Shown: one piece after another, positions 28,026-43,498 of the stretch | How the letters are laid out: the number at the start of each line of letters is the position of its first letter | Position numbering within the stretch: the first letter of the stretch is position 1 | From: Verrucomicrobium sp. BvORR106 | GTDB taxonomy: Bacteria > Verrucomicrobiota > Verrucomicrobiia > Verrucomicrobiales > Verrucomicrobiaceae | DNA length: 64,000 bases | NCBI RefSeq assembly: GCF_000739655.1 | Contig: NZ_BATR01000112.1 | Coordinates: 124,001-188,000, forward strand | Direction of reading: 5' to 3' | Notes under the pieces: generated by a model | Told to the model about the DNA's origin: nothing | What the model saw: the letters and a program-made list of their open reading frames with translations, nothing else | The model's database searches: none | Position numbers and translations under genes: made by a program

Positions 28026-31000
28026 ATGAACACACGTCTCATGGATGACTTCACGAATCCGGCAAGCTGGCTGGCCGTGACCTCCGGTGATGCCCGGCTG
28101 ACGGTGAAGAGTGAGGAGGGGCTGAGGGGCGGACACGCCCTCCGCCTGGACTTTGACTTCATGGGCGGGGGCGGGTTTGTCGTGGTGCGGAAGGTCTTCT
28201 CCATGCCGTTGCCGGAGGCGTATGGCTTCTCCTTTGAGGTGCGCGGTGAGGCTCCAAGAAACAACCTGGAGTTCAAACTGGCGGATACGAGCGGGCGCAA
28301 TGTGTGGCGATGGATGGAGCAGGAGTTTGAGTTCAGCCTGGAGCCGCGCCCGATCTGCATCAAGAGCAGCCAGATCGAATTCGCCTGGGGTCCCGCGGGA
28401 GGCGGGATCTTGCGGAAGCTGGGCGCCGTGGAGTTTGTCATCAGTGCTGGCCCGGGCGGGAGAGGAACGGTGTGGCTGGATGACTTCCGCTTTGTAAACC
28501 GGACCATCCGGAAATCTCCCCTGGTGACGACCTCCTCATGCGCCCGAGGGACGAGTGCCGACCATCTGCTGGGAAACAAGCCGGATGCGGGCTGGCGCAG
28601 CGCCCGAGGGGATGAGAGTCCATGGCTGAGGCTGGACTTCCATGGCCTGCGGGAATACGGGGGGCTGATCATCGACTGGGCACCGAAGCCCGCCACAAGG
28701 TCCTTCACCGTGACGGCGTCAGAGGACGGGGAAACCTGGCAGCGGCTGAACCAGTCGATCAATGATCAGGGTTCAAGGAGTTACATCTATCTGCCTGGAT
28801 CTGAATCCCGGCATCTGCTTCTGACCTTCGACGGACCGGTGGCCATGACCCATCTGGAGGTGAAGTCGTTTGAGTTCTCCCGGTCCGTGGTGGACTTCTT
28901 TCATGCCATCGCGACCCGCAGCGGGCGCGGGCGCTATCCCCGCTGGCTGCTGCGCGAACAGAGCTACTGGACCTGCGCCGGCACCCCGGAGGGGAGGACG
29001 TGTTCGCTCATCAACGAAGACGGGCTGGTGGAGCCGGACATGGGCACTTTTACCCTCGAACCCTGGATCCAGGTGAAGGATCGTGTCTTTTCCTGGGCTG
29101 ATGCCCGCCGGAGAGTCTGCCAGGGGGAGGACGGTCTGGCCATCCCCTCGGCGCACTGGACGCTCCCGGGGCTGACGCTGGAGACCACCGTATGCGGCAC
29201 GGGGCGTGGCGAGGATGCGGTGATGTTTGTGCGCTACCGTCTCCGCACCACCGGCAAGGTGCCCGTGAAAATCCACTTTCACGTGGCGGTGCGTCCGTTC
29301 GAGGTGAATCCACCCTGGCAGAGCTCGCAGAGCAATCACGGCTGGGTGGGGCTGGGAGGGGTGAGCGAGATCTATGAGATCGCCTGGAAGGAGGGGGCGG
29401 TGCAGATCAATGGGGACAAGTGGGTGGTGCCGCTCCAGAAGCCAGGAGCCTTTGGGGCACTGGCTTTTCAGCAGGGGAACATCACTGACTTCATCGCGGC
29501 AGGCTGGTTGCCCACACAATCCACCGTGCGGGATGAGTTTGGTTTCGCCTCAGCCGCGATGCGATTTGATCTGACGCTGAAACCCAAGACGGAGCATGAC
29601 CTGTATGTGGCGGTGCCCTTTGGCTTCAAGCGTCTGCTGGACATCAATCAGCGTCATGCCATCGCGGCTCTGGATGGGGCATCGCAGTTTGAGGAGGCAG
29701 GACGCGTCATGCGCCGCCGCACTGGCACCGTGACCTGGCGACTGCCGGAAGGCGTGGCTCGGGAGGCGGCGCGCACGTTCCGCACAGCGGCCGGCCAGAT
29801 TCTCATCAATCGAGATGGCCCGGCGCTGCATCCCGGCCCTCGCCGCTACACGCGCTCCTGGGTGAGGGATGGCGTGATCATGGGCGCGGCGTTGATGCGG
29901 ATAGGTGACTACGAGGCGCTGCCGGAGTTCATCCGCTGGTTCGCACCTTACCAGCGAGAGGACGGCTTTGTGCCCTGCTGTGTGGATCGTACGGGCCCAG
30001 ACTGGCTGGTGGAGCACGACAGCCACGGCCAGCTCATCTATGGTGTGATGGAATCCTTCCGCTTCACGGGCGACCGGGATTTTCTTCTGGAGATGTGGCC
30101 GTATGTGGTGAAGGCGGCGAAGTTCATTGAGCAGCTGCGGGCGCAACGACTCACGCCCGAGTACCTCACGCCGGAGAAGAAGGCGCGCTACGGGTTGCTT
30201 CCTGAATCTGCCAGCCACGAGGGCTATCTGGCCCACCCTGTGCACGCGTATTGGGATGACTTCTGGGCGCTGCGCGGTCTGAAGGATGCGGCGGCCATGG
30301 CTGCGGAGCTGGGGCACGGGGATGAGGCTCGTGAATTGACAGAACTGGCCTACGCTTTCAGAGACACGCTTTGTGACTCGATCCATCACGTGATCGCGGA
30401 AAAGGGGCTGCACTATGTGCCGGGCTCCGTGGAGTGGGCGGACTTCGATCCCACAGCCACCTCCAATGCTGTGACGCTGCTGCAGAGCATGGCCCACCTG
30501 CCGATGAAACAACTGGACGAGATGTTCGCGCTCTTTGTGCGGGACTTCCGCCGGAAGCACGGGGGGGAGATGGAGTGGAACAACTACACGGCTTACGAAA
30601 TTCGCATCGTGGGAGCGCTGGTGCATCTGGGCAAACGTGCGGAAGCACTGGAACTGCTGGAGTTCTTCCTCACGGACCGCCGACCCCGACATTGGAACCA
30701 GTGGCCGGAGATTTCCTGGAAGGACCCTCGCAGCCCGGGTCACCTGGGGGATGTGCCCCACACGTGGATCGCCGCAGAGTACATGCTCGTGTTTGCCGCC
30801 CTCTTTGCCTATGAGCGGGAGGTGGATGATGCCCTCATCATCGGTGCAGGCGTGGACGAGCGCTGGCTTTCCCAGCGCGGCGGCATCTCTGTCTGCGAGC
30901 TGCCCACCTGGTTTGGCCGGCTGGATCTTAGTCTGGACCGCAAGCCGGACGGTACGCTGCTGCTGGAGCTGGGCGGCGGCCTGCGCCTACCACGCGGAGG

Positions 31001-31145
31001 CTTTGTTTTCCGTCCACCGGGGGACCGCTCCATTCAGGCGGTCACGGTCAACGACAAGCCCGTCACCGAGTTTGATGCCCGCGAGGTGGTGGTGCGTGAA
31101 CTGCCTGCCCGCGTGGTTGTTTCCTTCGCCAGCCCGGAGGGCTGA
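28026..31145 (+). CDS. Very large glycoside-hydrolase-like protein with discoidin domain
   Basis: 1,039 residues, no signal peptide, so probably cytosolic. The N-terminal region (about 1-165) is a beta-sandwich like a carbohydrate-binding module (YGFSFEVRG... WLDDFRFVN). A discoidin/F5-F8-type module follows (about 180-285: DESPWLRLDFHGLREYGGLIIDW... FTVTASEDGETWQRL). A central beta-super-sandwich comes next (about 300-580), then an (alpha/alpha)6 catalytic barrel (about 590-930) with YTRSWVRDGVIMGAALMRIGDYEAL, DSHGQLIYGVMESFRF and EWNNYTAYEIR. I cannot name its family. Related to amylo-glucosidase/GH94-clan barrels. Encoded 27 bases before a GH94 phosphorylase, it likely supplies or trims its substrate. 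Catalytic acid/base cannot be assigned with confidence. Confidence 0.75.
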   Translation: MNTRLMDDFTNPASWLAVTSGDARLTVKSEEGLRGGHALRLDFDFMGGGGFVVVRKVFSMPLPEAYGFSFEVRGEAPRNNLEFKLADTSGRNVWRWMEQEFEFSLEPRPICIKSSQIEFAWGPAGGGILRKLGAVEFVISAGPGGRGTVWLDDFRFVNRTIRKSPLVTTSSCARGTSADHLLGNKPDAGWRSARGDESPWLRLDFHGLREYGGLIIDWAPKPATRSFTVTASEDGETWQRLNQSINDQGSRSYIYLPGSESRHLLLTFDGPVAMTHLEVKSFEFSRSVVDFFHAIATRSGRGRYPRWLLREQSYWTCAGTPEGRTCSLINEDGLVEPDMGTFTLEPWIQVKDRVFSWADARRRVCQGEDGLAIPSAHWTLPGLTLETTVCGTGRGEDAVMFVRYRLRTTGKVPVKIHFHVAVRPFEVNPPWQSSQSNHGWVGLGGVSEIYEIAWKEGAVQINGDKWVVPLQKPGAFGALAFQQGNITDFIAAGWLPTQSTVRDEFGFASAAMRFDLTLKPKTEHDLYVAVPFGFKRLLDINQRHAIAALDGASQFEEAGRVMRRRTGTVTWRLPEGVAREAARTFRTAAGQILINRDGPALHPGPRRYTRSWVRDGVIMGAALMRIGDYEALPEFIRWFAPYQREDGFVPCCVDRTGPDWLVEHDSHGQLIYGVMESFRFTGDRDFLLEMWPYVVKAAKFIEQLRAQRLTPEYLTPEKKARYGLLPESASHEGYLAHPVHAYWDDFWALRGLKDAAAMAAELGHGDEARELTELAYAFRDTLCDSIHHVIAEKGLHYVPGSVEWADFDPTATSNAVTLLQSMAHLPMKQLDEMFALFVRDFRRKHGGEMEWNNYTAYEIRIVGALVHLGKRAEALELLEFFLTDRRPRHWNQWPEISWKDPRSPGHLGDVPHTWIAAEYMLVFAALFAYEREVDDALIIGAGVDERWLSQRGGISVCELPTWFGRLDLSLDRKPDGTLLLELGGGLRLPRGGFVFRPPGDRSIQAVTVNDKPVTEFDAREVVVRELPARVVVSFASPEG

Positions 31146-31172: not shown

Positions 31173-34100
31173 ATGAGTGCACCGCATTCCACCGTCCACC
31201 CGGAAGCCCGCCTGCTGGCCAACGGCCGATACTTCGCCCTGATCACCGCTGCGGGTACGGGGCAGTCCCGAAGACATGGCCATGTGGTCAACCGGTGGCT
31301 CGGGGATCCTGTGGAAGACGCCCATGGCCAGTTCATCTACCTGCGTGATGTGGGTGATGGCAAGCTGTGGTCCGCGGGGTTGCAGCCGGTGGGGCATCGC
31401 GGAGAGCGGTACGTATTTTCTGCCTCGGCAGGGGCCTGCCACCTGCTGCATGAGCAGGCGGGGATACTCTCGCAGGTAGATGTCGCGGTCTCGCCCCAGT
31501 TTGACATGGAGATCCGCCGTCTCACCCTGAAAAACCTGTCGGGACGCAGGCGCACCCTTGAGGTGACCAGCTACCTGGAGAGCGTGCTCACCTGGCAAGG
31601 GGCGGACATTGGGCATCCGGCGTTCTCCAAGTTATTTCTGCAAACTCGCTACGTGCCGGAGCAGGGGGCTCTGGTCACAGAGAGGCGGCCACGCGGGAAT
31701 GATGAGAAGTGGCCCAGCCTCTATCACGCGCTCGCCGGTGCCAACGCAGTGGGCTGGGAGACGGACCGGCTTCGCTTTCTCGGACGGGGGCGCACGGCGG
31801 CCCAGCCTGCAGCGCTGGAGGGGGCACTCTCCGGCACAGTGGGGAATGTGCTGGACCCTTGCTGCAGCCTGCGGGCGGTGGTGGACCTGGATCCAGGAGA
31901 GAGCAAGGTGCTGGCCTTCCTTACCGGCATCGCGGAGACCTCGCGTGAGGTCCGGACGGTGACGGAGAGCCATCGTACTGCTGCGCAGTGGGAGCAGGTC
32001 TACGTGGCGGCCGAGGAGCATGAACGCAGCCTCTGGTCTGATCTCAAACTCAGTGCTGAGGAAGCAGCGGATCTTCAATCGCTCGCAGCCGCGATGCACT
32101 ACGGCAGCCGTGCTCTGAAACCCGCGGCCGTGGATCTGCCTGCGGATACGGATGTGAATGCGGTGTTTGGCCAGTTCAAGATTCCCAGAGACCGGATGCA
32201 GATCGTGGTGTCTGGCGGGTGGGGCAAGCCGGTGACGCAGGAGGTCTTGCGGGCACGTCAGTACTGGGGGGCCAAGGGATTCTTCACGAATCTCATCGTC
32301 CTGGCAGAGGATGCCAGGCCGGCACCCGCCGGACTGGATGATCGCGTGTTTACCTTGAACTCACGAGAGCTCCCGGAGCCCCATCGCAGAGTGCTGCTGG
32401 CGGCGGCATCCCTGGTGGTGGAGCAGCGCCTTCCTGTAGTGAACTCCCAGGCCTCACCGCTGGTACCTCCCGTCGTGCAAAGACAGGCCTCGGCTGAAGG
32501 GAAGGTCGTTGCTTCGACGGAGACGCTTCAATTTTTCAATGGCTACGGCGGATTTAGCCAGGATGGCACCGAGTACGTCATTCGCCTGGCTCAAAGGGAG
32601 GGTAGGCTGAGCCGTCCACCGCTGCCGTGGATCAATGTGGTGGCCAACCGGAAGGCTGGGTTCCTAGTGAGCGAGGCGGGAGCTGGCTGCACCTGGGCCA
32701 GGAACAGCCAGGCCAACCGCATCACCCCCTGGTCGAACGAGCCAGTGACGGATCCCTACGGTGAAGCGTACTATCTGCGGGATGAATCCTCCGGGGAGGT
32801 GTGGTCGCCCCTGCCAGGTCCAGTGCCGAGTTCAGGAGATTATGAGGTGCGGCATGGGTTCGGGCGCAGCCGGTTCCTGACCCAGTGTCAGGATCTGGAG
32901 CATGAGGTGACAATGTTTGTGCCTGAAGAGGATCCGCTGAAGATCGTGCGCCTTCGTCTCACCAACCGCGGAGGCACGGTCCGGAACCTTTCGTTCACAT
33001 CGTATCAGAGGCTGGTGCTGGGCTCGCTGCCAGAGTTACCCAGCATGGTGACTACCCGACTCGAGGCGGACGGCAGCCTGCGGGCGGTGAACCTGGCGGC
33101 CGGAGACTTTCGGGGTGGCCTGGTGTTTAGCGATCTCCAGGTGCATGGTGCGGTGGTGGTGGGGAGTGCGCATACGGCAGACCGGGCTGCGTTTCTGGGC
33201 CAGCATGGCACGCCGGTGAATCCTGCTGCGTTGGTCTCGGGCGGACGTCTGAACAGCGCCGTGGGGACCGGCCTGGATCCCTGCTTTGTGCAGCAGAGAG
33301 TGTTTAACCTTCAACCCGGTGCCACGGTGGAGTGCGTGGTGCTGCTGGGTGAGGTGATGAACGAAGATGAGGCTGCGATTCTGGTTTCCCAATATCGCGC
33401 GCTCAATGCCGTTCTGACGGCTGAAGAAGAGGCCTGTGCCTTCTGGAAGTCCCTCCTGGGTGGGGTGCAGGTGAGTTCTCCCTCGCCCATCCTGAACGTG
33501 ATGGTGAATGGCTGGCTCGCTTACCAGACCCTGTGCTGCCGGATGTGGGCACGGTCCGGTTTCTACCAGTCCAGCGGGGCCTTTGGCTATCGCGACCAGT
33601 TGCAGGATTCTGGTTCACTCCTCGCACTGGATCCCGCCTATGCACGGGCCCAGATCCTCCTGCATGCCCGGCACCAGTTCGAGGAAGGGGACGTGCTGCA
33701 CTGGTGGCATGCGGAGCCGATTGGACGGGGGCTTCGCACCAAATTCTCTGATGATCTGCTGTGGCTGGCGTTTCTAACGGCGGACTATGTGGGCACGACC
33801 GGAGACGTGGGCATTCTGGACGAGCGGGCGCCCTTCCTGACGGCTCCGCTTCTAGGGGAGCACCAGGATGAGGTGTACCTCACGCCTGAGATCTCACCGA
33901 ACGATGCCGATCTCTACGAGCACTGTTGCCGCACCATGGACCGCTCTTTAAAGGTGGGGGAGCATGGCCTGCCTCTCATGGGGGTGGGAGACTGGAACGA
34001 TGGGATGAGCCGCGTGGGCCGCGAAGGGCGGGGCGAGAGTGTGTGGATGGCGTTCTTCCTCTATCACATCCTGGGTCTCTTCATTCCCATCTGTGAACGT

Positions 34101-34973
34101 CGGAGTGACAGCTCAAGAGTTGAGCGCTACACCGCCCATCGGAAGGCACTGTACGATGCCATTAACGAGGGAGGATGGGATGGGGAGTGGTATCGGCGCG
34201 CTTACTATGACAACGGTCAGCCATTGGGCTCATGGCTCAGTGACGAGTGCCAGATCGATGCGCTCGCCCAGTCCTGGGCGGTCATCGCCAAGGCCGCCCC
34301 GCCCGAGCGGGCGGCGAGTGCGATGAACGCCCTTTCGCAGCGCCTTATTTCGGAGAGTGATGGCATCATCCGTCTGTTGACTCCGCCTTTTGTGAAGACC
34401 GCGAATGATCCCGGGTACATCAAGGGTTATGTGGCGGGAGTACGAGAGAACGGCGGCCAGTACACTCACGCGGCGTGCTGGGTGGTGAAGGCGGTGGCTG
34501 AGTATGGTGAGAACAACCGGGCGCTGCGGCTGCTGGAGATGCTGTCTCCCGTGGCGCATGCGAGGACCCAGGAGGCGGCAGATCTCTACAAGACGGAGCC
34601 GTATGTGATGGCTGCTGACATCTATGGCGCGGAGCCCCACGTTGGGCGCGGAGGCTGGACCTGGTACACTGGTTCCTCGGGCTGGATGTTCCGGGTCGCG
34701 GTGGAATCAATCCTGGGATTGCGGGTGGAGAATGGCGATACGTTGGTGATCAAGCCGTGCGTGCCGGATGACTGGACAACCTACAGTGTCATCTGGCGGG
34801 ACAGCCGTTCCGATGCAGTCTATGAGATCACCATTGGCGGTGAGCAGGGCAGTGGCAGGAAAGTGGTGCAGGCGAGCTGCGACGGGACAGTCTGCGAGGT
34901 GGTGGAAGGCATCGCGCGCATTCCGCTCCAGGGCAAAGAGGGGAGGTTCGCGGTGAAAGTGGGAATGGGTTGA
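31173..34973 (+). CDS. GH94-family glycoside phosphorylase (NdvB C-terminal type)
   Basis: 1,266 residues, no signal peptide. It resembles the C-terminal half of cyclic beta-1,2-glucan synthase NdvB: two tandem beta-sandwich (glyco_transf_36) modules (about 25-270 and 490-750, each with LLANGRY or NVVANRKAGF, YLRD and SxTSY-type signatures) and an (alpha/alpha)6 catalytic barrel (about 775-1160). The barrel has YRDQLQDS, HWWHAEP, DDLLWL, GDWNDGM (939-945, site of the family's catalytic Asp), a Gly-rich ENGGQYTHAA and WTWYTGSSGW. The synthase's glycosyltransferase half is missing, which points to a stand-alone phosphorylase releasing glucose 1-phosphate from beta-glucooligosaccharides. Beta-1,2 is the first linkage to test. 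Last gene of the operon. Confidence 0.88.
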   Translation: MSAPHSTVHPEARLLANGRYFALITAAGTGQSRRHGHVVNRWLGDPVEDAHGQFIYLRDVGDGKLWSAGLQPVGHRGERYVFSASAGACHLLHEQAGILSQVDVAVSPQFDMEIRRLTLKNLSGRRRTLEVTSYLESVLTWQGADIGHPAFSKLFLQTRYVPEQGALVTERRPRGNDEKWPSLYHALAGANAVGWETDRLRFLGRGRTAAQPAALEGALSGTVGNVLDPCCSLRAVVDLDPGESKVLAFLTGIAETSREVRTVTESHRTAAQWEQVYVAAEEHERSLWSDLKLSAEEAADLQSLAAAMHYGSRALKPAAVDLPADTDVNAVFGQFKIPRDRMQIVVSGGWGKPVTQEVLRARQYWGAKGFFTNLIVLAEDARPAPAGLDDRVFTLNSRELPEPHRRVLLAAASLVVEQRLPVVNSQASPLVPPVVQRQASAEGKVVASTETLQFFNGYGGFSQDGTEYVIRLAQREGRLSRPPLPWINVVANRKAGFLVSEAGAGCTWARNSQANRITPWSNEPVTDPYGEAYYLRDESSGEVWSPLPGPVPSSGDYEVRHGFGRSRFLTQCQDLEHEVTMFVPEEDPLKIVRLRLTNRGGTVRNLSFTSYQRLVLGSLPELPSMVTTRLEADGSLRAVNLAAGDFRGGLVFSDLQVHGAVVVGSAHTADRAAFLGQHGTPVNPAALVSGGRLNSAVGTGLDPCFVQQRVFNLQPGATVECVVLLGEVMNEDEAAILVSQYRALNAVLTAEEEACAFWKSLLGGVQVSSPSPILNVMVNGWLAYQTLCCRMWARSGFYQSSGAFGYRDQLQDSGSLLALDPAYARAQILLHARHQFEEGDVLHWWHAEPIGRGLRTKFSDDLLWLAFLTADYVGTTGDVGILDERAPFLTAPLLGEHQDEVYLTPEISPNDADLYEHCCRTMDRSLKVGEHGLPLMGVGDWNDGMSRVGREGRGESVWMAFFLYHILGLFIPICERRSDSSRVERYTAHRKALYDAINEGGWDGEWYRRAYYDNGQPLGSWLSDECQIDALAQSWAVIAKAAPPERAASAMNALSQRLISESDGIIRLLTPPFVKTANDPGYIKGYVAGVRENGGQYTHAACWVVKAVAEYGENNRALRLLEMLSPVAHARTQEAADLYKTEPYVMAADIYGAEPHVGRGGWTWYTGSSGWMFRVAVESILGLRVENGDTLVIKPCVPDDWTTYSVIWRDSRSDAVYEITIGGEQGSGRKVVQASCDGTVCEVVEGIARIPLQGKEGRFAVKVGMG

Positions 34974-34984
34974 TGCGCTGCGCT

Positions 34985-36724
34985 TTACGAAATCATTCGT
35001 GGTCCGTTGCTGCGCAGCTCAATCCATTTCCATGAACCATCATCGTGAAGCTCCAGCACGGCATCGTGCCGGGCTGGGTCAGGTTCGCTCTCTTCAAATG
35101 AGACACAAGTGATGCCTCTGGCGCGGAGGGCGGAGAGGGCCATCTCGGCATGGTTCTCCCCCAGGGCAGACTCGATGTGGTCCAGGAAGATGTATTCCGG
35201 GTCAGAAAGGAGGGCGCGGGCGATGGAGAGCAGATGTTGCTTGGAGATGGAAAGTCGATCCTCCCAGTTATGAGGGGTGGTGAGGTCTTCGTCCGACTTT
35301 AGCTTGGAGGACTTCAGCCCGATCTCATCAAACAACTGCCACAGAGCCTCGTTGCTCACGCGCTCCTCGCACCCGGCGGGGATGACGATTTCACGGACGG
35401 AGCCGGGCGGGAGATAGGGCTGGCCCGGGAGAAACGCGAGCTTCTCGACAGGTGGGCGCACGATGCTGCCGATGCCTTCCACCTGCACGCCGGCGGACGT
35501 GCGGAACAGAGCCACCCGAGCGGTCTGGGAGGGGCCGTTCACTAGCACGCGGAGCCCCGGGGTGAGGGTGAGGTTCAGATCGCTGACGATAACCGTATGA
35601 TCCTTGCTGGAAGTGCGAAGCGTGAGCCCGGCATAGAGGAAACGATCTGAGCCGGTCGCATACTCGACCTGGGGCGCGTCGCAATCCAGCCCCGCGCACT
35701 CCGTCGCTTCCACAAACTCTCCCAGCCGGGTGATGACGGAGGCATAGGAGGAGATGGCCTGGAACTGGGCAATGATGAGCGAGAATGCGGCCAGCAGGGT
35801 GGCAAAGGCCATTGCCGACTGACCAATGACTCCGAACTCCACTTTCCCCTGGATGAAGAGCGGGGCCACGATCAACGAAGGGATGAGCTGGATCATGTAG
35901 TTGTAACCCGTCGTGAAGAAATTCAGGTTACGATTGATTTCGGTGATCCTGCGGAAGTTCCCTACGAGCTGATCAATCCGGGTCATCAACCGGTGGCGGA
36001 TGGTCTGCTGGTTGCCGGTGACGGCGATGCCTTCAGCGTTCTCCCGCATGCGGATGAGCTCTGAGCGGAAATCGGCCTCGCGGTCTGCCTGCTGGTAGTT
36101 CAGCCGGATGAGCGGGCGGCCCAGCCAGATGGTGAGGGCGGATCCCACCGCGGCATAGACGACAGCTACGAGAAACAGCTTGGGGCTGATGGACCACAAT
36201 ACGCCGGAGAAGGAGATGGCGGTCATGGTCCCGTTGAGGATGAGGAGCAGGAAGGAGAGGGTGCTGACCGTCAGCTGCTTCACATCCTCTGACATGCGCT
36301 GGTCGGGATTGGTCAGCGCACCGGACTCCTCGAAACGCAGGTAGAGCCGCTGGTCCACATAGAGACCGACGATGCGGTGCGTGAGCCAGTCCCGCCAGAG
36401 GAGCCCGAGCCGCTCTTCGGCGAATCGATAGAAAACGGCCACCACCGTGGAGCCGCCAAACACGGCGACGTACAGCCAGGCATAGTGGACAAAGGCTGCC
36501 ATGTCCCGCTTCTCAATGGCAGACATGAAATAACGTCCGACATAGCTGTTGAGGACGTTCATGCCATTGATGCAGAACATGCAGGCCAGCAGCATGAAGA
36601 GCAGCATCTTGGCCCGGCCGCCCGCGGGGGAGGACAAAAACACTCCAATGGAGCGCTTCATCCGCTGAAAGGTTTGAGGCTTCAGCTTGGGATGCTTTTC
36701 CTCCTTGATGGGGGGCGATGGCAT
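34985..36724 (-). CDS. ABC transporter of SbmA/YddA type with degenerate ATPase site
   Basis: 579 residues; six-span membrane domain (about 35-330) joined to a nucleotide-binding domain (about 350-560), the layout of YddA/ABCD-family half-transporters. The ATPase motifs are eroded. Walker A reads GPSQTARVA (397-405) with no GKS/T, the signature reads LSISKQH (491-497) for LSGGQ, and Walker B reads YIFLDHIESAL (511-521) with His where the catalytic Glu should be. A Q-loop (FLPGQPYLPPG) is kept. It probably does not hydrolyse ATP. It may run on proton motive force like SbmA, act as a sensor, or need a partner. Convergent with the GH94 gene (11-base gap). A palindromic operator lies 114 bases upstream. 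Confidence 0.85.
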   Translation of the reverse strand: MPSPPIKEEKHPKLKPQTFQRMKRSIGVFLSSPAGGRAKMLLFMLLACMFCINGMNVLNSYVGRYFMSAIEKRDMAAFVHYAWLYVAVFGGSTVVAVFYRFAEERLGLLWRDWLTHRIVGLYVDQRLYLRFEESGALTNPDQRMSEDVKQLTVSTLSFLLLILNGTMTAISFSGVLWSISPKLFLVAVVYAAVGSALTIWLGRPLIRLNYQQADREADFRSELIRMRENAEGIAVTGNQQTIRHRLMTRIDQLVGNFRRITEINRNLNFFTTGYNYMIQLIPSLIVAPLFIQGKVEFGVIGQSAMAFATLLAAFSLIIAQFQAISSYASVITRLGEFVEATECAGLDCDAPQVEYATGSDRFLYAGLTLRTSSKDHTVIVSDLNLTLTPGLRVLVNGPSQTARVALFRTSAGVQVEGIGSIVRPPVEKLAFLPGQPYLPPGSVREIVIPAGCEERVSNEALWQLFDEIGLKSSKLKSDEDLTTPHNWEDRLSISKQHLLSIARALLSDPEYIFLDHIESALGENHAEMALSALRARGITCVSFEESEPDPARHDAVLELHDDGSWKWIELRSNGPRMIS

Positions 36725-36838
36725 GCAGAGTAACTACCAGTAAGGGTGGAGGGAGGCAAGGGGCACTAACGGGCGCCTGGTGCAGGGAGGTGCTTCCACA
36801 GGTTTGCTTCTAGCATGAACCCCGCGATGGAGTCGATA

Positions 36839-36854
36839 CGCCCTAGGTCCTACG
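36839..36854 (+). promoter_or_regulatory. Palindromic operator, site F
   Basis: CGCCCTAGGTCCTACG: the TAGGTCCTA half is perfect, the left half departs (CGCCC for GGACC). It lies 114 bases upstream of the ABC-transporter start (36724) in the 204-base divergent gap. Confidence 0.5.
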
Positions 36855-39291: not shown

Positions 39292-41148
39292 ATGAACTTG
39301 AATCAAGAGACCATTTCAGCAGCCGCCCAGCGCATGGGCATTGCGCCGGAGGATCTGGCCGCCGTCGTTCAGCAGGGTGGAGTTGTTTCCTATGAATCCG
39401 GTGCCTATCTCTTTCATGAGAGCACGCCGCGTCTCTGGCTCGGCATTGTGCTTGATGGAGAGGTGGAGGTGCAGCGCGGTGCGCAGGCCCGCAGTGTGAT
39501 CCTGGCCACGCTGAAGCCTGGGGCCATTCTCAGTGAGGGGGTGATGCTGGATGATTCTCCCCACGCCACCAGCGCCACGGCTCCGCGGGGTGCAGCGGTC
39601 TGGCAGATCACCCGGGCCATCCTGGAGAAGATCCGTGCAGAGAAGCCGGACATTTACTACCGCATCGCCGGCCGGGTCGCGGCGCGGCTCAGTGATCGGA
39701 TTGGCCTGGCATCCGGGCGCATCGCCGGGGAACACGGGCCCGCAGAGATCTCCGCAGTGCGTCGTGAACATGATTCGCTCGGTGAGCGCGATGTGCCGGA
39801 TCATGCTTACTACGGGGTGCAGACGATCCGTGGGGTGGAGAACTTTCCGCTCTCTGGCATTCATCTGTATCACTTCCGCCACTTCGTGAACGGGCTGGCG
39901 TTGGTCAAGAAAGCTGCCGCCCTCGCCAATGGCGAGCTGGGCGTGCTGGAGCAGGGCAGGGCGGAGGCGATCGTGAAGGCCTGTGATGAAATCCTGGCTG
40001 GCAAGCTGCACGATCAGTTTGTGATCGACATGTTTCAAGGAGGTGCCGGCACCTCCACGAACATGAATGCGAACGAGGTGATCGCCAACCGCGCGTTGGA
40101 GATCCTGGGTCATAAGAAGGGGGAGTACCAGCATCTCCACCCCAATGATCACGTGAACTGCTCGCAATCCACCAATGATGCGTACCCGACAGCTATCAAG
40201 CTGGGCGTCATCCTGACACTGCAGGATACGCTCTCTGCCCTGCGCGAACTGCGTACGGCGCTGGAAAACAAGGCGAAAGAGTTCGCCGATGTGCTGAAGA
40301 TGGGACGCACGGAAAATCAGGATGCCGTGCCGATGACGCTGGGTCAGGAGTTCGGCGCCTACTCGGTGATGATCGGAGATGGCATCCGCCATCTCAAGCA
40401 CGCGGGCGGAGAGTTTCTGGCGATCAACATGGGAGCCACTGCAATTGGCACGGGGCTGAACAGCCCGCCCGGATATGCAGCCCTCTGTACGCAGCGGCTC
40501 GCTGAGGTCAGTGGCATTCCCGTCACGCTCGCTGGAGATCTGGTGGAAGCCACGCAGGACTCCGGCGAGTTCTCGCTCATGAGCGGCACCATGAAGACGG
40601 CCGCGGTCCAGCTTTCCAAGATCTGCAACGACCTGCGCTGGTTGTCCTCCGGACCGCGTTGCGGTCTGTATGAGATCAAGCTGCCTCCCATGCAACCGGG
40701 TTCATCCATCATGCCGGGGAAGGTGAATCCCGTAGTGCCGGAGGTGGTGAGCCAGATCTGCTTCCAGATCATCGGTGCGGATGTGACGGTCTCCATGGCT
40801 GCCGAGGCCAGTGAACTGGAGTTGAACATGGCGGAGCCGGTGATTGCCTTTAACCTGCTCTTCGGTCTCACCCTCCTGAGGAATGCCGCCATCATCCTGA
40901 ACAGCCGGTGCATCTCTGGCATCGAGGCCAATCGTGAGCGCTGCCTGGCATACGTGCACAACTCGATCGGGCTGGTCACGGCACTGAATCCGGTGCTGGG
41001 GTATGAACGAAGTGCTGCGATCGCCAAGGAGGCGCTGAAGACGGGGGGCAGCGTGTATGATCTGGTGCTGCAGAAAGGCTGGCTGACTCGGGAGCAGCTG
41101 GATGATCTGCTCAAGCCGGAGAATATGACCCACCCGCGCCAGGTGTAG
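39292..41148 (+). CDS. aspA: Aspartate ammonia-lyase with N-terminal CRP-like sensor domain
   Basis: 618 residues, about 150 more than usual aspartases (about 470). Residues 1-150 form a cyclic-nucleotide-binding (CRP) fold: GIVLDGEVEVQRGAQARSVILATLKPGAILSEGVMLDD. The phosphate-cassette arginine is absent (LDDSPHATSA). From 155 the aspartase begins: DVPDHAYYGVQTIRGVENF, then GGAGTSTNMNANEVIANRALE, HPNDHVNCSQSTNDAYPTA, and the signature loop GSSIMPGKVNPVV. The enzyme splits aspartate into fumarate and ammonia, which feeds the encoded fumarate reductase. Aspartase and fumarase share this fold; YYGVQT and gene context favour aspartase. The extra domain suggests allosteric control by an unknown ligand. 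Confidence 0.9.
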   Translation: MNLNQETISAAAQRMGIAPEDLAAVVQQGGVVSYESGAYLFHESTPRLWLGIVLDGEVEVQRGAQARSVILATLKPGAILSEGVMLDDSPHATSATAPRGAAVWQITRAILEKIRAEKPDIYYRIAGRVAARLSDRIGLASGRIAGEHGPAEISAVRREHDSLGERDVPDHAYYGVQTIRGVENFPLSGIHLYHFRHFVNGLALVKKAAALANGELGVLEQGRAEAIVKACDEILAGKLHDQFVIDMFQGGAGTSTNMNANEVIANRALEILGHKKGEYQHLHPNDHVNCSQSTNDAYPTAIKLGVILTLQDTLSALRELRTALENKAKEFADVLKMGRTENQDAVPMTLGQEFGAYSVMIGDGIRHLKHAGGEFLAINMGATAIGTGLNSPPGYAALCTQRLAEVSGIPVTLAGDLVEATQDSGEFSLMSGTMKTAAVQLSKICNDLRWLSSGPRCGLYEIKLPPMQPGSSIMPGKVNPVVPEVVSQICFQIIGADVTVSMAAEASELELNMAEPVIAFNLLFGLTLLRNAAIILNSRCISGIEANRERCLAYVHNSIGLVTALNPVLGYERSAAIAKEALKTGGSVYDLVLQKGWLTREQLDDLLKPENMTHPRQV

Positions 41149-41185: not shown

Positions 41186-43498
41186 ATGACTGCGAGTGAT
41201 CTGGCCTTTGTCAACACGAGCGTTCCGCTCCTCTCCCACTTCACGGAGGCCCAGCGCCGTGATCTGGTAGAAGGTTCCCTGGTACGGGACTACCAGGTCG
41301 GGGAGGTGATTCTCCACGGCGGGGATGAGGTGCACCTCCTGGGCGTGCTGCTGGAGGGGGTGATTCACGGATTGATTCCCTCCTCAGGCGCCGGGGCGCT
41401 GCCACTGGGGGAGATCCAGGCGGGGGGCACGTTTGGTGAACTGGCCCTGATGAGTGGGGATCCCGCTGTGGCGGATCTGGTGGCAGCCACGCCGTGCCGA
41501 ATCATGCTGGTTCCTTTGACCTTGTTCCAGAGCCGGATCATGGCCAATCCCGGTGCGGCCCAACTCATCGCCTTGACGGTGAGCACGCGCGTGCAGCTGG
41601 CCCTGCAGGACCCCGCCAGAGCGGCTGCACTGAACCGCAAACCTGCTGAAGGGGGCCCTCTGGAGCTCAAGGGGGAACGGCCGGAGCGTATCCTGGTGAT
41701 CAATTGCGGATCGTCTTCACTGAAGTACCGGTACTTTGACAGTGAGACGCCAGAGCTTTCCGCCGGCGGGCAGGTGGAGCGCATTGGCCAGCCTGGAATG
41801 AGACTCAGCCAGAAGTCCGCCAAAGGCGAGCTGCAGCAAGACCTGCCTTCCGGCGGCTTTGCAGAGGCTTTCCAGGCAATGCAGAGCGCCCTGGTACATC
41901 CTGAATCTGGGGTGCTGAAGGATCGCGCAGCGGTGACGGTGGTAGGGCACCGGGTGGTGCATGGCGGGGAGAAGTTCTCAAGTGCTACGATCATTGATGA
42001 CGCTGTGCTGGCGGAAATCGAGGCCTTGGGCGCCCTCGCGCCTTTGCATAACCCGGTCAATGCCGCGGGCATCCGCGAGGCCCGGCGGGCCTTTCCCGGG
42101 GTGCCGCACGTGGCGGTGTTTGACACGGCCTTTCATGCGACCCTGCCCAGCCAGGCCTATCTCTACGGCCTGCCTCATGAGTACTATGAAACCAAGGGTG
42201 TCCGCCGCTACGGCTTCCACGGCTCTTCTCACAGCTATGTGACGCTGGCTGCGGCCCAGCACCTGCGGCGACGGCCGCGGGATCTGCGCATCATCAGCTG
42301 TCATCTGGGCAATGGGGCCTCCATTTGCGCCATCGACCACGGTCGCTCGGTGGACACCTCCATGGGGCTGACGCCGGGGGAAGGGCTGCTGATGGGGACC
42401 CGCTGCGGAGACATCGACTCTGGGGTGGCCGCGCATCTGGCTCGCACGGAGGGGATGGGGCCGGAGCAGTTCGATGAAATGTTGAACAAGCGCAGCGGCC
42501 TGCTCGGGCTGTCCGGAATCTCCAGCGACATGCGCGAGGTGGAGCAGGCGGCGGAGCAAGGGGACCCACGGGCTCTGACGGCGCTCAAGGTCTTTTGTTA
42601 TCGGGTGAGGAAGTACATCGGTGCCTACATTGCCGCCATGGGGGGCGTGGATGTGGTCCTGTTCACAGCAGGCATCGGCCAGGGCAGCGCTGGCGTTCGG
42701 GCCACAGCGCTCCAGGGCCTGGGATGCATGGGCATCCTGCTGGATGAGGAGCTCAACCGCCGCGTGGTCAGCGGAGTGGTGAGCTGCATCTCCGCCGCTG
42801 GCTCGCCCGTGACGGTGCTGGTGGTGCCCACCGATGAGGAGCGCATGATCGCCCGTGAGACGCTGCGGGTGCTGACGCGAGACTACCTGGTGAAGGCCAG
42901 CGACGCCTGCCGGGATGCGCCTGTGCCCATCGAGGTCTCCGCGCACCACATCCATCTCTCTGCCTCCGATGTGGAGGCCCTCTTCGGTGCAGGGCACGAG
43001 CTCACAAAGCACGCGGACCTCTCCCAGCCCGGGCAGTTTGCTTGCAAGGAACAGCTCACCATTGTGGGGCCCAAGGGCCGCATCGAACGGGTCCGGGTGC
43101 TGGGGCCGGCGCGGAAGGCTACACAGGTGGAGATCGCGATGACGGAGCAGTTTAAGCTGGGGATCCAGCCGCCCATCCGCGAGTCCGGGGATATCGATGG
43201 CTCGCCAGGTTGCACCCTGGAGGGGCCTGCAGGCAGCGTGAACATCGAGCGGGGAGTGATCTGCGCGCTGAGGCACATCCACATGACCCCGGCCGATGCC
43301 TTAAGATATGGCGTGCGGGACAAGAGCAGCGTGCGGATCCGCGTGCAGGGGGAGCGGGAACTGATCTTTGGCGACGTACGGATTCGCGTGGATCCCAGCT
43401 ATGCCCTGGCGATGCACATTGATACGGATGAAGCCAATGCGGCCAATCTGCAAAACGGGGCACAGGGCTTCATCGATGGCATCCAGGAGGATGGTTAG
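41186..43498 (+). CDS. CRP-like domain/acetate kinase/PduL phosphotransacylase triple fusion
   Basis: 770 residues, three parts. 1-145: CRP fold with GGTFGELALMSGDPAVAD; GEL (85-87) is kept but the usual phosphate-binding Arg is missing. 168-565: complete acetate kinase with VINCGSSSLKYR (171-182), GHRVVHGGEKF, FDTAFHATLP, YGFHGSSHSYV (342-352), CHLGNGASICAI and FTAGIGQGS (493-501). 580-770: PduL phosphotransacylase with IEVSAHHIHLS (582-592) and RHIHMTP (696-702), whose His residues bind zinc. One chain can thus take acetyl-CoA to acetyl phosphate to acetate + ATP, a likely channelled pathway under ligand control. Two separate enzymes in most bacteria; the three-way fusion is unusual. Starts 37 bases after aspA. 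Confidence 0.93.
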   Translation: MTASDLAFVNTSVPLLSHFTEAQRRDLVEGSLVRDYQVGEVILHGGDEVHLLGVLLEGVIHGLIPSSGAGALPLGEIQAGGTFGELALMSGDPAVADLVAATPCRIMLVPLTLFQSRIMANPGAAQLIALTVSTRVQLALQDPARAAALNRKPAEGGPLELKGERPERILVINCGSSSLKYRYFDSETPELSAGGQVERIGQPGMRLSQKSAKGELQQDLPSGGFAEAFQAMQSALVHPESGVLKDRAAVTVVGHRVVHGGEKFSSATIIDDAVLAEIEALGALAPLHNPVNAAGIREARRAFPGVPHVAVFDTAFHATLPSQAYLYGLPHEYYETKGVRRYGFHGSSHSYVTLAAAQHLRRRPRDLRIISCHLGNGASICAIDHGRSVDTSMGLTPGEGLLMGTRCGDIDSGVAAHLARTEGMGPEQFDEMLNKRSGLLGLSGISSDMREVEQAAEQGDPRALTALKVFCYRVRKYIGAYIAAMGGVDVVLFTAGIGQGSAGVRATALQGLGCMGILLDEELNRRVVSGVVSCISAAGSPVTVLVVPTDEERMIARETLRVLTRDYLVKASDACRDAPVPIEVSAHHIHLSASDVEALFGAGHELTKHADLSQPGQFACKEQLTIVGPKGRIERVRVLGPARKATQVEIAMTEQFKLGIQPPIRESGDIDGSPGCTLEGPAGSVNIERGVICALRHIHMTPADALRYGVRDKSSVRIRVQGERELIFGDVRIRVDPSYALAMHIDTDEANAANLQNGAQGFIDGIQEDG

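Follow-up and report, generated by a model that had tools for sequence, protein, structure and literature searches.

Gene organization of the locus

The window, by which we mean the whole 64,000-nucleotide stretch of Verrucomicrobium sp. BvORR106 DNA analysed in this study, carries a gene for an ABC-type transporter whose nucleotide-binding domain (NBD) lacks its catalytic residues, together with linked genes for a GH94 protein and for a large protein referred to here as c2. The features are as follows.

34985..36724, minus strand: pseudo-ABC transporter gene (579 aa), transmembrane domain plus catalytically dead NBD
35690..36724, minus strand: transmembrane domain (TMD), residues 1-345, ABC_membrane_2 (Pfam PF06472 at residues 38-290; AlphaFold2 helices)
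35987..36052, minus strand: ICL2 coupling segment, residues 225-246, conserved in intact relatives and eroded in NBD-less relatives
34988..35689, minus strand: pseudo-NBD, residues 346-579, NBD fold predicted (pLDDT mostly 80-90; aligns to NBDs)
35507..35536, minus strand: degenerate Walker A, GPSQTARVAL, residues 397-406
35402..35431, minus strand: degenerate Q-loop, LPGQPYLPPG, residues 432-441, Gln column occupied by Gly
35234..35254, minus strand: degenerate signature, LSISKQH, residues 491-497
35162..35194, minus strand: degenerate Walker B, YIFLDHIESAL, residues 511-521, Glu replaced by His
35090..35107, minus strand: H-loop region, CVSFEE, residues 540-545, His lost
31173..34973, plus strand: linked GH94 protein with two supersandwich domains and a catalytic domain; homologous phosphorylases are linked in related loci
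28026..31145, plus strand: linked c2 protein (1039 aa) with an F5/8C (CBM32-like) domain and an (alpha/alpha)6-like C-terminal part, the latter by inspection only; linked in related loci

The residue range of ICL2 in the window protein was set from the alignment and from the general layout of the fold. Pfam placed ABC_membrane_2 (PF06472) at residues 38-290 with 134 bits against a cut-off of 24.4, so the membrane domain is preserved, as the initial annotation of this DNA had proposed, and ABC_tran reached 13.7 bits, below its cut-off of 25. The PDB matches found by phmmer were ABCD1 (1337-aa chain), the Rv1819c-type 6tqe, and human ABCD4, ABCD1 and ABCD3; Foldseek and VIA likewise gave ABCD1/3/4 and Rv1819c as the best structural matches. 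By the PF06472 match and these structural matches to ABCD1 and Rv1819c, the protein has an ABC-type TMD.

The catalytic set of an ABC ATPase was found to be lost in full, including the Walker A GxxGxGK[ST], the Q-loop Gln, the Walker B Glu and the H-loop His. Loss of GxxGxGKS from Walker A (GPSQTARVAL), the signature LSISKQH and the change of the Walker B Glu to His (YIFLDH) had all been read correctly in the initial annotation. It had also described the Q-loop as preserved, which is wrong: the Gln column holds Gly in the window protein (LPGQPY) and in an 87% identical ortholog, and the loss of the H-loop His goes beyond the losses it named. Sequencing error was ruled out as the cause, because the 87% identical ortholog, from another genome, has the same changes and the site is likewise dead in 106 relatives.

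The "shared operator" under which the gene had been placed was not recovered. No part of the 206-bp upstream region recurs significantly in the rest of the window: short-word BLAST against the whole window and a repeat search gave nothing above chance. The region contains only a weak palindrome (82%, window positions 36837-36852), which lies between divergent genes and has no second copy found in the window. Further along, positions 39292-41148 encode an aspartate ammonia-lyase/fumarase-type enzyme with a fused N-terminal cyclic-nucleotide-binding domain, and positions 41186-43498 encode a 770-aa triple fusion of a cNMP-binding domain, acetate kinase and phosphate propanoyltransferase (PTAC), in a stretch that also holds genes for a DcuA/B transporter, an Asp-Al exchanger-like protein and succinate dehydrogenase/fumarate reductase.

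Distribution and motifs of the dead clade

Relatives were searched for in genome contigs, in 384 genomes of the class, 386 of the order, 195 of the order of Thiocapsa and 297 of the phylum of locus L018, and were found in Verrucomicrobiota, Pseudomonadota (mainly Chromatiaceae), Myxococcota and Binatota. Classification covered 146 distinct proteins, fewer than the matches found, some low-scoring ones (mostly 38-46% identical to the query) having been left out; 106 have a dead NBD, 26 are intact, 14 appeared to be without an NBD and none is mixed. After checking, 11 of these 14 were retained as NBD-less. L107 and L215 were dropped because NBD DNA lies downstream in another, broken frame, and L216 because the contig end cuts the gene.

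Among the dead members, neither the H-loop His nor the Q-loop Gln occurs (0/106 each), and the Walker B Glu occurs once (1/106), in L109, whose Walker A, Q-loop and H-loop are broken. The catalytic set is altered in every dead member, and the loss is therefore complete. The Q-loop Gln column has become Glu in 103/106, and P-loop position 4 is acidic in 68/106. The signature is often kept (LSLGEQQ in 29/106, LSIGEQH in 13/106), which counts against the reading preferred below, since pure decay would not predict its retention. Residue counts, made like the ICL2 counts below with the partial L179 and L187 and with L215 and L216 left out, showed N56, D214 and E216 to be invariant in 117/117 dead and NBD-less proteins, with Asp at 214 in 0/19 intact proteins.

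The alignment that the initial annotation had suggested for detecting a clade with the same loss revealed that a whole clade shares it, and the window gene belongs to this pseudo-ABC transporter clade, which is old; it is no isolated copy in decay. No description of the clade was found in the open-access literature searched, and the word "degenerate" and the stem "verrucomicrobi" are absent from the two closest papers.

Selection on the dead NBD and its predicted fold

Between the window gene and its 87% identical ortholog, dN/dS was 0.064 for the TMD and 0.107 for the NBD; the intact paralog pair from these genomes gave 0.035 and 0.029, respectively, so that the window pair stands somewhat above the intact pair, a point against the preferred reading. 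Within the dead clade, 70 closely related pairs, to which the survey was confined as a wider one was saturated, had median values of 0.102 for the TMD and 0.138 for the NBD, with an NBD maximum of 0.247. The dead NBD is under purifying selection. Selection for the protein without ATP hydrolysis, as postulated in the initial annotation, is supported by both the ortholog values and the clade-wide loss. The same annotation had named intact relatives in the genus and high dN/dS as signs to the contrary. Intact relatives do exist (paralogs L007 and L006, 36-37% identical, in the window genome and one same-genus genome), but they form a separate deep paralog lineage, and dN/dS is low, not high.

AlphaFold2 modelling with 24 sequences gave the NBD a pLDDT of mostly 80-90 (whole-model mean 75), and in structural alignment the pseudo-NBD model matched genuine NBDs such as 6uk1 (Z 20.0, 2.9 A, 205 residues). 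The dead NBD is thus a selected domain without catalytic residues and is predicted to be folded.

Order of catalytic death and NBD loss

Phylogenetic trees used TMD positions only, to keep out any bias from the NBD. With 47 rows, dead and NBD-less proteins formed one clade on a long stem (100/100), and six NBD-less rows grouped together inside it (99/98). With 31 rows, the 11 NBD-less proteins and two NBD-bearing rows made up a 13-row group (100/99), to which the window gene is close in the TMD tree. The NBD losses fell into one clade with weak support when all columns were used (81/30); with the ICL2 columns removed two losses were favoured (92/64), a single loss appearing in 6% of bootstrap trees. 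One further tree was computed with the partial L179 and L187, L216 and seven distant intact rows left out.

The NBD-less proteins end right after TM6, and tblastn gave no match to NBD-like DNA near the 11 genes in the fetched flanks (first six loci; L103, L104, L105, L108, L113). In pairs whose rest-of-TMD identity was 0.65-0.72, ICL2 identity was 0.86 for intact, 0.63 for dead and 0.16 for NBD-less proteins (pairs not independent). ICL2 was the only one of all 22-residue segments of the TMD to drop relative to the dead clade, by -0.31, the next non-overlapping segment changing by -0.03. This pattern argues that the dead NBD remains coupled to the TMD, and the erosion in the NBD-less proteins argues that they do not dock an NBD made elsewhere. 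Genome G304 holds all three versions, intact, dead and NBD-free.

Relation to SbmA and other known systems

The initial annotation had offered the window protein as a possible intermediate form. The nesting of NBD-less relatives within the dead clade fits this idea, but the form is not one that leads to SbmA itself: SbmA branches with YddA, its union with this lineage is rejected by AU tests, and its glutamate ladder is absent here. In a TMD tree that included SbmA and YddA, SbmA fell near YddA; the AU test rejected SbmA with the NBD-less proteins (p 0.0007) and SbmA with dead plus NBD-less proteins (p 0.0105), the SbmA branch being long and the tree quick. Common descent with SbmA was rejected on these tests, and SbmA is a separate event from this lineage. 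Gain of an SbmA-type proton ladder (E193, E203, E269, E276, E287, E378; the glutamate ladder of PMC13316013) was not found in the clade. Of the six columns, E193 and E276 alone are acidic, and intact ABC relatives have these acids too; the others carry mostly Leu (E203), Asn (E269), Arg/His (E287) and Ser/Ala (E378). Any coupling to protons would have to use different residues, which counts against the preferred reading.

The clade resembles SbmA/BacA (SLiPTs) in having an ABC-type TMD that works, or probably works, without ATP. The NBD-less relatives end just past TM6 with an eroded coupling segment, and SLiPTs are without coupling helices according to PMC13316013. SLiPTs have no NBD; the window protein keeps its pseudo-NBD, and 11 relatives do without one. 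The clade differs from SbmA/BacA in its separate origin, the missing glutamate ladder, the dead NBD of most members and a sugar instead of a peptide context. The 2026 SbmA study (PMC13316013) speculates that SbmA arose by separation of a YddA-like TMD from its NBD.

With YddA, BclA, Rv1819c and eukaryotic ABCD1/3/4 (type IV fold), the window protein shares the PF06472 TMD, the domain order and the predicted fold, but it has lost all ATP-binding and hydrolysis motifs and is linked to sugar phosphorylases. Known beta-1,2-glucan ABC systems share the proposed class of cargo but are ATP-driven (PMC11842490), unlike the window transporter with its non-working NBD.

Gene neighbourhood and candidate cargo

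Linkage was counted from tblastn matches within the sequence fetched around each locus, roughly 3.6-22 kb. A phosphorylase of the beta-1,2-glucan type, or c2, was found near 17/31 dead and 5/6 NBD-less genes (22/37), against 0/21 intact loci (Fisher p 2e-6; loci not independent); the motifs were re-read in 13 of the 21 intact control loci. In the other 14/31 dead loci the fetched flank contained neither a phosphorylase nor c2, and this weighs against the preferred reading. An SOGP gene lies directly downstream in 8/11 NBD-less loci, its start near or overlapping the transporter stop. The two SOGP genes tested carried PF21958 and PF21250, and one had 5h3z as best PDB match. The SOGP substrate is given as 1,2-beta-oligoglucans in PMC3960220. 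Phosphorylase linkage and SOGP substrate together point to a beta-1,2-gluco-oligosaccharide, which we propose as a hypothetical cargo from gene content.

For c2, Pfam gave the F5/8C domain only, a profile of 13 copies returned CBM32-like matches and one weak hydrolase match, and phmmer against the PDB gave nothing useful. Its family comprises CBM32-like proteins of ~1030-1140 aa without a catalytic Pfam match (homologs L015, L018, L020, L067, L084, L149), recurs beside GH94/SOGP genes in several phyla, and may be an undescribed glycoside hydrolase family. The loci L067-L069 (dead NBD) and L075 (NBD-less) share RND (AcrB-type) and partly outer-membrane-efflux neighbours.

Proposed function and alternatives

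Our preferred explanation (probability roughly 0.6) is that the window protein is a carrier working without ATP, that it probably takes up beta-1,2-gluco-oligosaccharides destined for phosphorolysis, and that its NBD persists as a structural remnant. An ATP engine that is disabled yet kept folded across the clade, and dropped in close relatives, suggests that cargo is probably moved without ATP. ATP independence is a strong inference and the most economical reading; for direction and energy source we advance hypotheses, with import appearing to fit the enzyme set better than export. A transporter of the YddA/Rv1819c/ABCD kind would have stopped using ATP, and its pseudo-NBD would have survived as a folded, non-catalytic domain that remains seated on the coupling helices and probably keeps the two subunits of the dimer together. 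The NBD of one sublineage would then have become dispensable and been lost once or twice, followed by erosion of the ICL2 coupling segment. Phosphorolysis would keep the gradient directed inward and save the ATP that an ABC importer spends.

The wider question is how a primary, ATP-driven transporter comes to need no ATP. The conserved pseudo-ABC transporter clade with its NBD-free descendants is real, unusual and an independent parallel to SbmA. The order appears readable in this separate lineage, from ATPase death through a dead NBD kept under selection in several phyla to its later loss and an eroding coupling segment, and the presence of all versions in G304 makes the transition directly testable. 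We give even odds to the fuller proposal that here, for a second time and independently, an ABC transporter turned into a carrier that does not depend on ATP, with intact, dead-NBD and NBD-free stages (the last with a dissolved coupling segment) still living, catalytic death preceding NBD loss, and recruitment to phosphorolytic beta-glucan metabolism in which phosphorolysis replaces ATP as the pull.

An unlikely alternative is ATP-independent export of glycans that reverse phosphorolysis would produce in the cytosol. The fold is an exporter fold, and PMC11842490 names Cgt, which exports cyclic beta-1,2-glucan as an ABC transporter, and notes the general reversibility of glycoside phosphorylase reactions. 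Export is opposed by a GH1 family protein among the linked enzymes in Thiocapsa and by the lack of a glucan synthase among the window neighbours tested by Pfam. A crude check found no strongly hydrophobic N-terminus on the GH94 and c2 proteins of the window, which fits cytosolic use of imported sugar but is no proof of it.

Also quite unlikely, and more so than export, is a regulatory or sensing role, an idea of the initial annotation that the data do not require, in which the pseudo-NBD binds a nucleotide or other ligand and gates a carrier that is otherwise ATP-independent. Strong conservation of the dead NBD, its new near-invariant residues A405, E434 and W565 and its predicted NBD fold would suit such a role, but the P-loop glycines are replaced, often by acidic residues, and the 11 NBD-less relatives dispense with the whole domain.

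We also consider it unlikely that the protein forms the degenerate subunit in an ABC transporter heterodimer of the TM287/288 or Pdr5 type, in which an intact partner brings Walker A and B and the dead subunit lends its signature. TM287/288, TmrAB, TAP and Pdr5 do maintain a degenerate site in a conserved transporter (PMC7756269), the signatures retained in many dead members are the part that a dead half must supply, and the window genome has one intact, unlinked PF06472 paralog, which counts against the preferred reading. In TM287/288-type heterodimers, however, the intact partner site hydrolyses ATP, whereas here the dead or NBD-less gene is the sole PF06472 gene in 12/21 plus 2/9 genomes (14/30), so that no intact partner of the ABC_membrane_2 family can supply ATP there. 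Moreover, no second ABC_membrane_2 gene was seen adjoining the dead one in the neighbourhood gene maps, the window protein's own signature is broken, and the NBD-less members have no signature to lend and an eroded ICL2.

That the gene is a decaying pseudogene is scarcely credible given its 579-codon open frame, its low dN/dS and the fact that Verrucomicrobiota, Pseudomonadota, Myxococcota and Binatota all conserve the dead form, even though one same-genus genome, G003, retains only a remnant of a window-type gene. This C-terminal remnant of ~51 codons (L087:8045-8197) lies beside GH94 (80%) and c2 (83%) genes that are intact, and the window-type gene is therefore dispensable there, a further point against the preferred reading; a 44% identical dead homolog stands elsewhere in G003. 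The same genome contains a fragment of the intact-type paralog (L089:8394-8654) with a stop within the match.
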